The notes below the pieces were generated by a model, which ran no database searches, was not told the origin of the DNA, and saw only the letters and a program-made list of their open reading frames with translations. A DNA stretch of 29,896 bases, taken from positions 1-29,896 of the IMG/VR virus record IMGVR_UViG_3300030106_000099. One strand, given 5' to 3'. How positions within the stretch are numbered: position 1 is the first letter of the stretch; each line of letters begins with the position of its first letter. A program made the position numbers and the translations under genes. The DNA is from a virus. Positions 20,835-29,896 of this stretch are shown here, one piece after another.

Positions 20835-21215
20835 TTATGATTGGCTAACTGCACCCTTCGTGCGCTTTCTTCTACTAGACATTACTTTACCACATCCTCT
20901 AGCAACAGCAGTGCCGGGAATATTTTTACCATTAAATTTGCGTTTAGATTTTGTCTCAACAACACCACCATTATTCATATTACGAACTTTTGCTTTTTTA
21001 GTGTTGGAGACTACAGTTTTGCCCTTTTTACCAGCAGATTTTTTCTTACGTGCTGTTTTTGCGCGTTCTTCTTTTGAAAGACTTTGAGCCTTCTTTCGTG
21101 GCAAACAACGATCAGGGTTCTTTTTATCTTTGGATGTACCGCATTTACCTTTTATTTCGCCATCAGTGCCAATGCGAACCCAGTCTTGTTTTAACCATTT
21201 TTTAAGCTCACCCAT
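20835..21215 (-). CDS. Basic protein, DUF5872-like, 126 aa
   Basis: A 126-residue Lys-rich protein. The N-terminus has LKKWLKQDWVRIGTDGEIKG, CGTSKDKKNPDRCLPRKKAQ and SLSKEERAKTARKKK, a conserved pattern (two Cys, Asp-Trp-Val) that I associate with DUF5872-type small proteins found in phages and algae viruses. The C-terminal half is basic and Asn/Gly-rich. The ATG at 21215 overlaps the end of the upstream gene. The proposed role is DNA or capsid association, inferred from charge only. Confidence 0.6.
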   Translation of the reverse strand: MGELKKWLKQDWVRIGTDGEIKGKCGTSKDKKNPDRCLPRKKAQSLSKEERAKTARKKKSAGKKGKTVVSNTKKAKVRNMNNGGVVETKSKRKFNGKNIPGTAVARGCGKVMSSRRKRTKGAVSQS

Positions 21216-21495
21216 TAGATTTACCGCGCTTTTTTCTAATTGCTTCTTTACCTTTTTTAGCAATTTGAGCTTGTTTTAACTTTCCAGCTACTTTTGCTCT
21301 TTGCTCTAAGACTGTCAATATTTGTATCTTTCTAGCGAAAGGCTTGTTTATTTTTTTTACTTTTGCAACTGTATCTCTAGCATCTTTTTCTGTTGCGTAT
21401 TTTATAGAAACAGTGTCCTTGGGATTTTCATCCGTATAAAGCCTGCGACCACTTTTTTTAGGCTTCTTACCAGTTCCCTTTTTAGGATCAGCCAT
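21208..21495 (-). CDS. Small basic conserved protein, 95 aa
   Basis: A 95-residue Lys-rich protein: GRRLYTDENPKDTVSIKYAT, DARDTVAKVKKINKPFARKI and QILTVLEQRAKVAGKLKQAQ. The middle is a conserved mixed helix-strand pattern I recall from marine phages, not just low-complexity Lys. It overlaps its neighbours by one and eight bases. It belongs to the block of five basic proteins. Function unknown. Confidence 0.6.
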   Translation of the reverse strand: MADPKKGTGKKPKKSGRRLYTDENPKDTVSIKYATEKDARDTVAKVKKINKPFARKIQILTVLEQRAKVAGKLKQAQIAKKGKEAIRKKRGKSNG

Positions 21496-22476: not shown

Positions 22477-22959
22477 TTAAGAAGCATCTGAGGAGCTTGA
22501 AATACCCATAAACTTCATAACAACAGTGGTATCAGCGCCGGGATCACCAGAAAGCACAATTTCAACTTCATCTGCTGTTTCTGTAGCAGCAGTTGTTGTA
22601 CCGCCAGACATACCTAAGACGCCATTACAGGGAAAAAATCCTTTAAATCCTGTGCTGTTCACAGCAGCAGATATACCATCTACAAACCCATCAGTATCTG
22701 CATCTGTTCCAATATCATTAAGAGTAACACTATTTGATGCTGCACCAGTTACAGCAATCATCACAGCCATAGGTATGAAGTTTGATGGAATACCAATTGC
22801 AGATTCCTTACCTGTTGTTGCACCATTAGCTACAGTAACTGTAGCTGTGTACACAGACATGGTCATCTCGCTTGTAAGAGCGCCTGTGGAAGAACTTTTA
22901 ACAATATTTTTAAAGCCGTTTTCAGAACGCACTGGTCCTGAGAAAGTAGAATTAGCCAT
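22477..22959 (-). CDS. Capsid decoration-like structural protein, 160 aa
   Basis: A 160-residue Ser/Thr/Gly/Ala-rich beta protein: MANSTFSGPVRSENGFKNIV at the start, VYTATVTVANGATTGKE, IPMAVMIAVTGAASNSVTL and a hydrophobic end. Its length, composition and position right after the major capsid gene fit a head decoration or minor capsid protein, a resemblance from memory. The ATG has AGGAG at proper spacing. It is the first gene after the capsid terminator and has its own candidate promoter, so its expression can be set apart from the capsid gene. Confidence 0.6.
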   Translation of the reverse strand: MANSTFSGPVRSENGFKNIVKSSSTGALTSEMTMSVYTATVTVANGATTGKESAIGIPSNFIPMAVMIAVTGAASNSVTLNDIGTDADTDGFVDGISAAVNSTGFKGFFPCNGVLGMSGGTTTAATETADEVEIVLSGDPGADTTVVMKFMGISSSSDAS

Positions 22960-22984
22960 GTGTATCTCCTGTCGTGGCTAGTGT

Positions 22985-23003
22985 CAGTTGCCCAATGCAA
23001 CTG
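22985..23003 (-). promoter_or_regulatory. 5'-leader stem-loop
   Basis: A perfect seven-base-pair inverted repeat, cagttgc and gcaactg, with a five-base loop. It sits between the candidate -10 box and the ribosome site of the 160-residue protein, so it would be at the 5' end of that mRNA. No T-run follows it on the minus strand, so it is not an intrinsic terminator. Protection of the transcript is one possible role. Confidence 0.45.
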
Positions 23004-23011
23004 TCAGGGAT

Positions 23012-23125: not shown

Positions 23126-24034
23126 CTACGCTCCGGGTGAACCAAAAACGCAACGTGGATCAGAAAATCCAAAGCTGTAACGCTCACGCGCTTTAAAGCG
23201 CATGTTTCCTGTATCAAAATCAGCCTCCATGTTTGTAGACATGGGAGTACGCTCAAAATGTTTAAATCCATTTGGAGCATCTGTTTTGATGAAAAACGCA
23301 TCTGGGTCTGTCAAGAAGTGGTTAACTGTGTAACCCTCTGGAACCATACCCATATTGCGAATTGCGTTTACATCATTGTCTGATGTTCCGACACGTAATG
23401 TTGATTCCAACAAGCGATCTGCAACAAATTGCAGTTGTGGTGGAATAATCAACTTAGTGCCACGTAGAGCAATGATCATATTGCGCTCATCAACAAATGT
23501 TGAAATGTCAATAAGAGCATTCTCAAGCGAGGTTTCGTTTAAGTCTGCTGCAACTGAAGGCTCGTTGCGGAACGTACCACCACCAGATAGCGGATGGTCA
23601 GTTGCACAAAGCTCCTTGCCATCACCACCAGCAAAACTGCTATCAAACGCATTATTAAGCGTTGCAGCAGCTTTAACTTGCTTAGTGTGCGCCATAGAAC
23701 GTGCAAGAGCACGGGTATAACGAGCACCAAGACGGTCATACAAATTATCCTCAATAGCTTCTTCTGTCAGAGCAAAAGCAAGAGCTACTGTTTCATGTGT
23801 ATAACGCGCTGTGAAAGCTTCATTTGCATTGTCAAATTCAACTCCTGCACCTTCTGATTTAGTCGGCGCATTTCCAAAACCGACAAGCATAACTTCCTCT
23901 TCAAATGCACGATCTGAAGTTTCAGTTTCATATATTTCCGCATGTTGATCTTCATAGCGGTCATATTCCATGCCGAACAGAGCGTTTAGGCCCGGCTCAA
24001 GCTCTTTGACAAGTTGTGAACGAGAAATAGCCAT
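23126..24034 (-). CDS. Major capsid protein, 302 aa
   Basis: A 302-residue protein: SRSQLVKELEPGLNALFGME at the start, SDRAFEEEVMLVGFGNAPTK, the conserved FTARYTHETVALAFALTEEA, LGARYTRALARSMAHTKQVK, and NPxxx-type TDHPLSGGGTFRNEP, then LIIPPQLQF. This is the pattern of major head proteins of uncultured marine phages with, presumably, the HK97 fold; the capsid shell is built from it. AAAGGAG lies before the ATG. It follows a decoration-type protein and a scaffold-like gene and is followed by an intrinsic terminator, consistent with a head operon. Confidence 0.85.
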   Translation of the reverse strand: MAISRSQLVKELEPGLNALFGMEYDRYEDQHAEIYETETSDRAFEEEVMLVGFGNAPTKSEGAGVEFDNANEAFTARYTHETVALAFALTEEAIEDNLYDRLGARYTRALARSMAHTKQVKAAATLNNAFDSSFAGGDGKELCATDHPLSGGGTFRNEPSVAADLNETSLENALIDISTFVDERNMIIALRGTKLIIPPQLQFVADRLLESTLRVGTSDNDVNAIRNMGMVPEGYTVNHFLTDPDAFFIKTDAPNGFKHFERTPMSTNMEADFDTGNMRFKARERYSFGFSDPRCVFGSPGA

Positions 24035-26096: not shown

Positions 26097-26591
26097 TTAT
26101 ACATACGAAATATCTTTCGGGTCAAGAATTGTTGCGATAATATTATCGTCATTTATAATACGAACCTCAAGATTTTCCACTTTGAACCTATTTCCAGCAT
26201 ATCTTCCTATAAGAACCCAATCTTTTTCATTACACCAAGGACCATTTGGGAACTTTTGGGAGTCTTTATATGCATCAGGACCCAGCTTCACAACATATGC
26301 CGCTACAGTTGCAAAAGCTTCTCTGTCCCTAACTGCATCAGGAACATAAAGACCGCCTTTGGTTTGGGCGCTGGGATAATAAGGAATAATGAGAACACGA
26401 TAGCCTGTCGGCTGCGGTAATCTCTCTAATGCAGACGGTTCTATTTTAGATGGATCGTCTTCATTTTTATTTTCTGCACCTTTAATTGCAGTTGCAAAAC
26501 CAAAAGCATTTTTTATGGGTTTTGATAACTCTTTGTTTATCTTCCGCTGTGCTCTCGCAACGTGCTCTGGCACGACTAATTTACTAGTCAT
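26097..26591 (-). CDS. groES: GroES-like co-chaperonin, 164 aa
   Basis: The C-terminal two thirds (about 58-160) align by eye with Cpn10/GroES: LPQPTGYRVLIIPYYPSAQT, then KGGLYVPDAV as the mobile-loop region that would contact GroEL, then NEKDWVLIGRYAGNRFKVEN and VRIINDDNIIATILDP near the end. At 164 residues it exceeds bacterial GroES (about 95-100) by an N-terminal helical extension of roughly 55 residues. It would form a heptameric lid on host GroEL and help fold the capsid protein, the known role of phage co-chaperonins such as T4 gp31. It overlaps the preceding gene by eight bases and precedes the scaffold-like gene. Confidence 0.85.
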   Translation of the reverse strand: MTSKLVVPEHVARAQRKINKELSKPIKNAFGFATAIKGAENKNEDDPSKIEPSALERLPQPTGYRVLIIPYYPSAQTKGGLYVPDAVRDREAFATVAAYVVKLGPDAYKDSQKFPNGPWCNEKDWVLIGRYAGNRFKVENLEVRIINDDNIIATILDPKDISYV

Positions 26592-26787: not shown

Positions 26788-26815
26788 TATAGTATGCTAA
26801 TATACGGGAAACACA
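26788..26815 (-). promoter_or_regulatory. Weak promoter-like sequence before the head operon
   Basis: In the 52-base gap, minus-strand TTGTGT and TACTAT are 16 bases apart, a weak match to a sigma70 -35/-10 pair; TATATT lies between. Transcription would begin at or very near the ATG of the 65-residue protein. Only one of several AT-rich choices, so tentative. Confidence 0.25.
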
Positions 26816-26833
26816 AGTACAATTACCAAAAAA

Positions 26834-27127
26834 TCAGAAAATACCTTGGAATCTCTGGGGTCTAGCTATTGAACTAAACTTTTTTACGGGGCCTCCCGCG
26901 TTTTTTCGCTGGGGCTTTTTCTTCTTTGGGCTTTTCTTCAACCCACGCTTCATTTTCTGGGGTGTTTGGGTCGTCTTTTTTGTAGTGGCCTTTTTTCGTC
27001 CTCGCTCGGACCTTCTTGACTGCTCCAGTGCTATTGCCACTGCTTGCTTTTGCGGACGCCCCTCCGACTTTAGTTTGCGAATGTTGCTGCTTATTGTCTT
27101 CTGACTTTTCCCTTTCTTGAGCGGCAA
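26834..27127 (-). CDS. Small basic protein, DUF6496-like, TTG start, nested in other frame, 97 aa
   Basis: A 97-residue basic protein: MPLKKGKSQKTISSNIRKLK, then SEGRPQKQAVAIALEQSRR, which I recognise as a widespread phage family (DUF6496-type, GKSxxTIxxNIxKLxxEGxPQKQAVAIAL). The start is TTG, two codons after an in-frame stop, so no longer start exists; GGGAG sits seven bases upstream. The C-terminal half is Lys/Thr-rich. The first 254 of its 294 bases also encode the 108-residue protein in the other frame. Probably a small DNA- or virion-associated protein; function not known. Confidence 0.7.
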   Translation of the reverse strand: MPLKKGKSQKTISSNIRKLKSEGRPQKQAVAIALEQSRRSERGRKKATTKKTTQTPQKMKRGLKKSPKKKKPQRKNAGGPVKKFSSIARPQRFQGIF

Positions 27128-27201: not shown

Positions 27202-29709
27202 TTATTGTCCTTTCATTGTAGCATTCACCGCAGCAATATCGCGCTGGGTCTGAATGCGCTCTTCTGCAACGCGAGAACGCTCATCAATAGCTTTTTCTTG
27301 ATTATCAATGCGTTGTTGCGCGATTAACACATCATTACGCTCTTTCTCACGATCCATCTCTTGACGTGCATCAAATTCATCTTGTTTACGCTGCATATCT
27401 GCTGCTTTTAACTGCAATTCCTGTTGTCTTATTTCAACAAGCGGATCTTGACCCTCTTCCTGTGGAGTTACAGCTTGAACAAGTTGTTCTGTCATATCTG
27501 CTGCAATTTGTGCCGCCCTTGCGTCTATTTGAGGCTTCATTTGCATCATCATCATTTGCATTGGATCTTGCGGCATTGGGCCTTGTGGACCCATTTGTGG
27601 AGGAGCCATCTGAGCTTGTTGCTGCATCATTTGCATCTGTTCTGGTGGTATTTGAGCCATGATTTCTTGCTGTGCTTGAGCTTCTGCCAACAAGCCTATG
27701 TGCTCTTGAATGTGTCCCTGCAGCGCCACAATAGCCTGTGGGTTTAATTGCATGGCAGGAGTGGACATAACAGCCATATGAGCTTCAATATGAGCCTCAT
27801 GATCTTGATCTGGAAAAGCTTGCAAAGGTGCGCCCATCAAGGCGTTTTGGTTTTCTTTTGATGGGTTCATAGGCTGTGGTTGCGGAGGTGCAGGTAGTAT
27901 AGCATCAATATTAGTTACACCAAGTGCCTCATACATCTTACGATAAGCAGCGTACAATCCCTGCGGTCCACCATGAACTTGTGGATTTGATTGCACCAAT
28001 TGTAATTCTGTTTGCGCTAAAGCAATGCGTTGCGACATAGAGAAAATATTTGGATCACTAACAGGCAATACATCAACTTTTGCATTAAAATCTTGTGCAA
28101 AAATTTCAGGACCCACCTCCATGCTAGGTGGATATGGATATGCTGGTACTGTTTGAGCAAAAATGCTTGCAAGAAGTTTAAATTCTACTTTTTGCGAATA
28201 GTGCAGCCTTTTATGAATTGCAGACATTACTTTTGTGCCGCGCTCCATAATCGCCATAGTTGTGCCAACAGGGGTTTCACCACCCATCTCACCAATCTTC
28301 AAATCAGCCATAGATGCAAATCTACGTCCTGCATCTACTAACGTTCCTAGAAGATTATAAAGCGTCCCTGAAGGCTCTTTGAAGGGAAGGGGCATCAGAG
28401 AGCCTTGCAGGGTGCCTCCAACAACATCAATGTCGCGGAACTCACCCGGTTGAAGAGGGGAATCTTCCTCACGAATACGAGCACCACGAGCCTTAAAGCC
28501 TGCTGGAAGATTGGAAAGTGTACCTGCATCAATTAGTTGGCGTAAAATAGATGTTGAAGCTTGAGCCAAACCACCAATCATATGCGTCAAACCAAGGCCA
28601 TAAAAACCAAGACCGGGCAAAAATTTATAATGCACGAAATATTGCTTCGCACTCTTAATTGGATCAGCTTCCATGTAATTTCTACGAATAGATAAAACAT
28701 CTCCACTATCAGCAATGATTGTAACAATGTAAGGTAACTTCAAACCTGTTGGTTGACCGTCAGGACCCATGTCTTCAAAGTTTTCAATATCAAGACTTGT
28801 ATGAACCTCGTAAAGAGTTAAATCCTCAGACGGTCCAGATGGATGTACACCCTGTACTTCATCAATCGTTTCTTCAACCTCATCAGCCTGATAAGTGCCG
28901 CTTTCTGAACTGCTAGGTAAATCAATATCACGATAAAAACCCACCAATTGCATTTTGCGAACTTCGTTTGAGTCCATTGTAATTCGATGCGTAATTCGCG
29001 GAGAAGACAACAAATCAGTCGCGCCATACGGTACAATCAAGTCTTCTGCATGTATAAATTTACTAACTGCACGTTGTTTTAAAGGGTCAAAGTAGACTTT
29101 TTTAAACGTAGAACCCACAACAGGAAGATAGAATAACATCTGATCTAACTCAGGATCATATTCCTCCATTTCATAGGTAATCATGTAATTCATATAATCT
29201 TTAACGCGCTCTGCCTGTTTCACAAGCATTTCATTTTGAGCACCAATCGCTTGTGTTCTTACAGGTCCAGTAGCAGGCAATAACTCACGATAGGCTTGTG
29301 CTTGAAACTGCGTAACACTCTCAGCCAACAAAGGATGAATAACGCCAGAAGAACCCTCAAAAGGCTCTGTACGCTCTTCAGTCTTCATGCCAAGAAACTC
29401 AAGACCAGTTTTGTATGTATCTTCCCAATCTTCTCTGGATGATAAATCATCCTCAATTGAACCAACTAAATTAGAAGAAATTGAATTTAATTCAGACTCA
29501 TCAATAACCTCTGCTAAATTACCATCAAACGGCACTTCAATAGGTGCAGGGGCTTCTTCTTGATATTCACCAATAACAGCACTGCCATCGTCAAACTCTG
29601 TAACTCCGGGCTGTGCAGGTAAATCAATAACGTTTTGCAACATGGGTGCTTCAGGAGCCATAGGCTCTTGAGGTAATCCCCCCGCTCCTAAACCACGTTC
29701 TACGGCCAT
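27202..29709 (-). CDS. Portal protein, 835 aa
   Basis: An 835-residue protein. EGSSGVIHPLLAESVTQFQA and YRELLP-type sequence near residue 120-145, MLFYLPVVGSTFKKVYFDP, the GATDLLSSPRITHR region and YFVHYKFLPGLGFYGLGLTH are hallmarks of the portal proteins of P22/SU10-like and marine podoviruses. The dodecameric portal sits at one capsid vertex, passes DNA and docks the packaging motor. The C-terminal ~200 residues are a Gln/Met/Pro-rich stretch and a coiled coil (QELQLKAADMQRKQDEFDA). The ATG overlaps the upstream stop (TAATG). Larger than average for the family because of this tail. Confidence 0.85.
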   Translation of the reverse strand: MAVERGLGAGGLPQEPMAPEAPMLQNVIDLPAQPGVTEFDDGSAVIGEYQEEAPAPIEVPFDGNLAEVIDESELNSISSNLVGSIEDDLSSREDWEDTYKTGLEFLGMKTEERTEPFEGSSGVIHPLLAESVTQFQAQAYRELLPATGPVRTQAIGAQNEMLVKQAERVKDYMNYMITYEMEEYDPELDQMLFYLPVVGSTFKKVYFDPLKQRAVSKFIHAEDLIVPYGATDLLSSPRITHRITMDSNEVRKMQLVGFYRDIDLPSSSESGTYQADEVEETIDEVQGVHPSGPSEDLTLYEVHTSLDIENFEDMGPDGQPTGLKLPYIVTIIADSGDVLSIRRNYMEADPIKSAKQYFVHYKFLPGLGFYGLGLTHMIGGLAQASTSILRQLIDAGTLSNLPAGFKARGARIREEDSPLQPGEFRDIDVVGGTLQGSLMPLPFKEPSGTLYNLLGTLVDAGRRFASMADLKIGEMGGETPVGTTMAIMERGTKVMSAIHKRLHYSQKVEFKLLASIFAQTVPAYPYPPSMEVGPEIFAQDFNAKVDVLPVSDPNIFSMSQRIALAQTELQLVQSNPQVHGGPQGLYAAYRKMYEALGVTNIDAILPAPPQPQPMNPSKENQNALMGAPLQAFPDQDHEAHIEAHMAVMSTPAMQLNPQAIVALQGHIQEHIGLLAEAQAQQEIMAQIPPEQMQMMQQQAQMAPPQMGPQGPMPQDPMQMMMMQMKPQIDARAAQIAADMTEQLVQAVTPQEEGQDPLVEIRQQELQLKAADMQRKQDEFDARQEMDREKERNDVLIAQQRIDNQEKAIDERSRVAEERIQTQRDIAAVNATMKGQ

Positions 29710-29896
29710 TATCTAACTCCTGAAAACTTCATACCTGAAACAGCCGCACCACCGCCACGGCACACAGCACCGCCACCTTTCATTTTCTTAACCCTGCCAC
29801 CTTTTTTCATTTTAGCAGGCTTCTTTTGCTTTGCAGCAGTTTTCATAGGCTCAGACTTATCGCCATCACCATCTAAATCTAAAAAATCAGGTTTAC
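29709..29896 (-). CDS. Partial Lys/Gly-rich protein with DLDGDGD motif, C-terminus only
   Basis: The C-terminal 61 residues are readable up to the right edge of the window: DFLDLDGDGDKSEPMKTAAK (Asp-rich DxDxDG calcium-loop-like motif), then KMKKGGRVKKMKGGG and a Cys/Gly-rich end. The stop overlaps the portal start (TAATG). The segment GGRVKKMKGGG is close to the repeat protein at 20531-20824, suggesting paralogy. A DxDxDG loop can bind calcium, as in dockerin or EF-hand loops, but a single short loop proves nothing. The N-terminus is outside the window. Confidence 0.55.
   Translation of the reverse strand, partial: KPDFLDLDGDGDKSEPMKTAAKQKKPAKMKKGGRVKKMKGGGAVCRGGGAAVSGMKFSGVR

Follow-up and report, generated by a model that had tools for sequence, protein, structure and literature searches.

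A conserved, modular out-of-frame gene pair beside the portal gene of uncultured marine phages, as indicated by sequence comparison

Two small phage proteins are encoded within one stretch of DNA, often with a +1 shift of frame, in the two-component spanins of the lambda Rz/Rz1 type, whose inner genes are often missed by gene callers, whose partners include one that diverges where it is overlapped, and whose architecture varies among phages (PMC6139136). Among dsDNA viruses, long overlaps on one strand are uncommon; +1 overlaps across viruses have a median length of 14 nucleotides (PMC8903798). In the HIV-1 tat/rev overlap, key residues of one protein coincide with disordered linkers of its partner (PMC9119678, citing Fernandes et al. 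2016). Comparisons of sequence argue that a dual-coding pair that resembles these systems in several respects, here called P1 and P2, is real and conserved in uncultured marine phage. Very likely, P1 and P2 are proteins of the head-assembly region that have separate translation starts on a single mRNA, each in its own frame, with their constrained parts segregated and their modules changing jointly. The pair was analysed in a 29,896-base virus contig (IMG/VR record IMGVR_UViG_3300030106_000099), which as a whole is called the window; its features are as follows.

27200-26874, minus strand: P1, the outer gene; 108 aa from an ATG start, with an N-terminal MASSIREK helix, a spacer, the RAR..EAWVEE cassette and a basic C-terminus with RGRP
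27127-26834, minus strand: P2, the inner gene; 97 aa from a TTG start, with a phrog_2423 core, a basic linker and a C-terminal tail
27127-26874, minus strand: dual-coded overlap of P1 and P2, 254 nt, P2 in the +1 frame of P1
27208-27212, minus strand: AAGGA, Shine-Dalgarno-like, preceding the P1 ATG within the end of the portal gene
27139-27135, minus strand: GGGAG, Shine-Dalgarno-like, 7 nt 5' of the P2 TTG (27127-27125)
27017-27127, minus strand: P2 core, residues 1-37, a predicted helical hairpin over the P1 spacer
26934-27011, minus strand: P1 cassette VRARTKKGHYKKDDPNTPENEAWVEE, residues 64-89, over the disordered linker of P2
26880-26906, minus strand: AT-hook-like KKRGRPRKK of P1, residues 99-107, optional in relatives (Pfam AT_hook E 0.094, below cut-off)
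26837-26896, minus strand: C-terminal tail of P2, GGPVKKFSSIARPQRFQGIF, mostly past the P1 stop and kept in nearly all relatives, core-less ones included
27202-29709, minus strand: portal protein gene directly upstream (phrog_1216 portal, E 2.4e-39)

The translations agree with an initial annotation of this DNA, which had reported both frames open over 254 nucleotides of the same strand with GGGAG seven bases before the TTG. It had also placed the TTG immediately after an in-frame stop; that stop exists (TAG, 27133-27131), but one codon, AAA, intervenes. Because the TAG sits one codon upstream, TTG is the sole usual start codon near the N-terminus of the family. The same TTG is used by L081, a contig from another metagenome that is about 99% alike, and by L235, a divergent Planktomarina-binned contig with AAGGAG upstream, and so it is not an assembly slip. 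P1 starts just past the portal stop and P2 starts 73 nt downstream of the P1 start. A search around the pair revealed no sigma-70-like promoter. Ribosomes would begin P1 at its ATG and P2, in the window and its relatives, at its own ATG or TTG 67-157 nt downstream, led by a Shine-Dalgarno-like site. On the 3' side of the pair lie a 65-aa gene, a GroES-like gene and probable head genes. The GroES-like co-chaperonin gene (26097-26591, minus strand; Pfam Cpn10, 8.6e-09), in the head-gene region, is also present in Pelagibacter phages HTVC027P and HTVC023P.

Residues 2-47 of P2 match the N-terminal core profile of phrog_2423 with an E value of 2.5e-16, which replaces the DUF6496-like identity first given to it. 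P2 has no match to Pfam DUF6496 (PF20106) at E<=1, and the best relative tested reaches only 15.9 bits (E=0.017) against a cut-off of 24. The naming of P1 as an AT-hook protein is likewise rejected, with 13.1 bits for PF02178 against a cut-off of 17.4 and with an RGRP motif that is present in part of the aligned relatives and absent in many. Profile searches with P1 returned no family above cut-off. Its conserved parts are the N-terminus (M-SS-REK) and the cassette, RARxxGHxxKDDPxTPENEAWVEE or, more loosely, RARxxGHxxxDDPxTPENEAWVEE, which recurs in otherwise different phage proteins. Profile matches of P2 to designed alphaRep proteins in the PDB (best 1.2e-5) were set aside because they are the sum of many weak repeat matches, each no better than chance.

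When viral contigs were scanned with P2, P1 and one P1 relative, about 200 loci were obtained, and both open frames have homologues over the overlap, as befits a functional out-of-frame overlapping pair. Class A, to which the window belongs, has P1 with the cassette over a full P2; class B has a cassette-less P1 over a full P2; class C has P1 with the cassette and lacks the P2 core, while the P2 tail (RFSKIARPQxFxGIF) remains at the P1 stop, still in the same +1 frame; and class D has P2 without a P1 partner. P2 is 65-71 aa long in most of class D and 74-104 aa long in classes A and B, the difference being the basic linker. The offset between the P1 and P2 starts is 67, 73, 82, 85, 151 or 157 nt, always 1 mod 3, and a Shine-Dalgarno-like site precedes most of the overlapped P2 starts. 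To avoid selection on P1 and P2 themselves, a second set of loci was picked via the portal gene alone, giving 52 loci new to the analysis, of which four lie on contigs that end too early; all 48 loci with enough sequence, some of them near-identical, keep P1 and the P2 frame. Classes in this set were assigned by regular expressions and then by reading the translations, which showed several loci scored as 'other' to be B or C and L235 to be A. The pair is absent from the 50,697 isolate phage records searched. The locus L060:3715-4228 has a different outer gene, of 116 aa, whose end falls 21 codons into the P2 core, and a TRGTGAATKGLDFYERV ending in place of the P2 tail.

In a portal tree obtained by a quick search with SH-aLRT support only, all P1-bearing rows of classes A, B and C with enough portal sequence form one group (55 rows, SH-aLRT 100), inside which the three classes interchange and outside which class D lies. 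Because the P1-bearing rows form one group, the overlapping form of P1 most likely arose once, beside a pre-existing P2. P1 would have arisen behind the portal gene and upstream of P2, reading the P2 core and linker shifted by one base. L176, a neighbour outside the 55-row clade, has a P1-like gene with the cassette and without the P2 tail. After the origin of P1, modules were most likely gained or lost through both frames together. Insertions and deletions would alter both proteins at once and so produce class A with core and cassette, class B without the cassette and class C after deletion of the P2 core. In class C, an internal ATG is the probable start of a shortened P2, which has the same tail at its end. 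More tentatively, the pair may be a dual-coded module in which, after deletion of the core, a shortened P2 made from a new internal start retains the tail, and in which P1 and P2 cooperate in head assembly; if this were true, the tail would be the essential part of P2, perhaps a head-binding tag.

Class C is also where ribosomal frameshifting from P1, rather than a start of its own, might supply the P2 tail. Lysine-rich A-runs lie just 5' of the P1 stop, with the tail directly behind in the +1 frame; moreover, class C lacks the start of the P2 core, and a search of four class C contigs (38-56 kb, perhaps incomplete) revealed no core at a separate site. However, +1 or -2 shifts are ill-suited to ordinary -1 slippage on A-runs. 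In most class C loci the P2 frame has no stop across the cassette as far as an upstream ATG, an opening that a shift close to the P1 stop would not require. Core-bearing P2 genes have their own ATG or TTG, mostly led by a Shine-Dalgarno-like site, and the family exists as free-standing genes. Frameshifting is therefore the less likely route to the tail in class C, and as an account of the P2 tail in general we consider it improbable.

Separate initiation of P1 and P2 leaves the question of whether P1 is a real protein over its whole length or a short N-terminal protein whose frame runs on by chance, with P2 alone real over the overlap. Stop codons discriminate clearly between partnered and partner-less genes. 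For the window, an expectation derived from the P2 protein and from local codon use puts 3.4 stops in the part of the P1 frame that covers P2 codons 1-36, which contains none (P about 0.01). The same segment is free of stops in 41 of 41 distinct partnered P2 genes, window included, with 2.6 expected in each, whereas the 28 P2 genes without a P1 partner show no avoidance at all (mean of 2.61 stops against 2.70 expected). The mirror test looked at the P2 frame between the cassette and the P1 stop: stops are absent from 32 of the 33 genes that have the tail behind them, with 0.67 expected, compared with 7 of 45 cassette genes without a P2 tail, in which 1.87 stops were observed and 1.54 expected. 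Owing to the relatedness of the rows, neither set of counts represents independent trials.

Selection was evaluated with synonymous change calibrated on neighbouring genes. Over the whole overlap, each frame is more conserved than the other dictates in six pairs (p=0.0002, the limit of 4000 draws), although the p-values are not independent because the compared pairs share ancestry. By segment, P2 given P1 is significant in every test, and both frames are significant in the cassette region (p<=0.004). Each frame is thus conserved beyond the constraint of the other, the weakest case being P1 over the P2 core, where p against stop-free draws ranges from about 0.0001 to 0.2 and is 0.09-0.20 in the weak pairs (WIN/L093, L082/L091 and L082/L093, WIN being the window). 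Because the stop-free p reaches 0.2, P1 over the P2 core is in part a stop-free spacer. The parts of P1 and P2 outside the overlap are under purifying selection: dN/dS of the P1 N-terminus is 0.11 in class A and 0.16 in class B, and that of the P2 tail is 0.07, 0.08, 0.17 and 0.18 in classes A, B, C and D. The value of 0.51 for the P1 N-terminus in class C carries alignment noise and may be inflated by gap-free alignment of MGSVR- and MTST-type starts.

A chance extension of P1 would account for a P1 sequence that over the P2 core is largely dictated by P2, for the pairs with no conservation beyond freedom from stops, and for 4-fold sites of the P2 core that are only slightly more conserved than those of the portal gene. 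It fits poorly with stop avoidance that depends on the partner, with a P1 cassette that shows strong conservation once P2 is allowed for and that turns up in unrelated phage proteins, and with the retention of that cassette where P1 has no P2 core beneath it, and we regard it as very unlikely. The initial proposal of two genuine same-strand genes is therefore backed by the relatives, the stop-avoidance controls and the selection tests. Its expectation of selection in both frames holds, but not uniformly, since P1 is mostly a stop-free spacer over the P2 core. Relatives with one frame only, or with one frame unselected, had been named as evidence against the pair; when sought, neither was found within the clade.

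Predicted structures are consistent with such a division. P2 is predicted to form helices at residues 9-21 and 26-45, with pLDDT of about 94-96 for residues 11-30 and 83 for residues 31-40, and a poorly ordered linker (pLDDT 51-60). P1 is predicted to have a moderate helix at residues 5-34 and pLDDT of about 50-60 over the remainder. A Foldseek search of the PDB with P2 gave nothing usable (best E 2.5). Because predicted folds and conservation are so placed, the folded core of P2 appears to lie over a disordered spacer of P1, and the P1 cassette over the linker of P2. This segregation would keep the cost of the overlap low, with P1 serving as a spacer where P2 folds and P2 as a basic linker under the P1 cassette.

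An RNA or DNA element in place of two proteins, suggested by the high DNA conservation in many relatives of the 3' end of P2 and of a block just past it (ACTTGTGTTTCCCG, 26818-26805), is most improbable, since the avoidance of stops is specific to a frame and varies with the partner gene, since the parts outside the overlap show codon-position bias and dN/dS of the coding type, and since Rfam has no match at the overlap. The block itself (ACTTGTGTTTCCCG, 26805-26818, minus strand), followed by an ATA..CATACTATATG stretch, lies right 3' of the P2 stop with exact copies in 32 of the loci listed, divergent ones included, and is a possible promoter or operator that is not sigma-70-like. Elsewhere in the window, Rfam RF03012 (Mu-gpT-DE RNA, 75.4 bits) matches 22957-23009 (minus strand), just downstream of a 302-aa gene at 23126-24034 that may be a Mu gpT-like capsid gene. 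Small basic proteins at 29709-29846 and 20835-21263 (both minus strand), near or ending in RGGGAAVSGMKFSGVR and ARGCGKVMSSRRK, resemble recurring C-terminal peptides of small phage proteins.

Genes of phrog_2423 in isolate phages lie mostly amid head, portal or terminase genes; in phage O4 the gene follows the endolysin gene. ORF22 of Pbunavirus SCUT-S1 (S1_022, 68 aa) matches phrog_2423 with an E value of 1.3e-28; mass spectrometry of virions identified it from 7 peptides at 77% coverage (PMC6521218 Table 1). Because this distant family member is found in virions, P2 is probably, by analogy with a protein that lacks the linker and tail of the window, a minor head or virion protein. P1 is proposed, from gene position alone, to act in the same process. 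From these comparisons we infer that P1 and P2 are translated, that both are located in the virion and how they act. The nearest isolate portals, 51-54% identical, belong to Pelagibacter phages and to phages 023Pt_psg01 and DSL-LC04. Similar portals (90% and 70% identical, respectively) are present on two contigs that were binned with Rhodobacteraceae and Planktomarina genomes, which hints at a host of the Roseobacter group.

The pair draws attention to the small and widespread phrog_2423 family as probable head proteins, and exposes blind spots of gene calling, in that dual coding would tend to escape standard gene finders because of a TTG start or an overlap filter. There are few long overlaps with such comparative controls, in which the partner, the core and the cassette are each present or absent, and the set allows measuring how two proteins split one DNA and how domains move when changes affect both. 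Like P2, the phrog_2423 proteins of isolates (Pbunavirus PB1 gp20, SCUT-S1 ORF22) have the same N-terminal core and usually lie among head genes; unlike P2, they are stand-alone in the isolate records examined, mostly 43-68 aa long, with no such linker or tail and no out-of-frame partner. Unlike tat/rev, which is spliced and retroviral, P1/P2 belongs to a dsDNA phage, and its segregation is deduced from conservation and predicted structure, not from mutagenesis. A spanin pair of the Rz/Rz1 type was considered and rejected, as reading of the translations revealed no lipobox or other lipoprotein signal and no membrane or hydrophobic segment. Whereas the Rz/Rz1 partners are membrane protein and lipoprotein of lysis, P1 and P2 adjoin the portal gene and swap modules through both frames. 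Long out-of-frame overlaps in phages are already known from Rz/Rz1, and what P1/P2 adds to them is a modular form.
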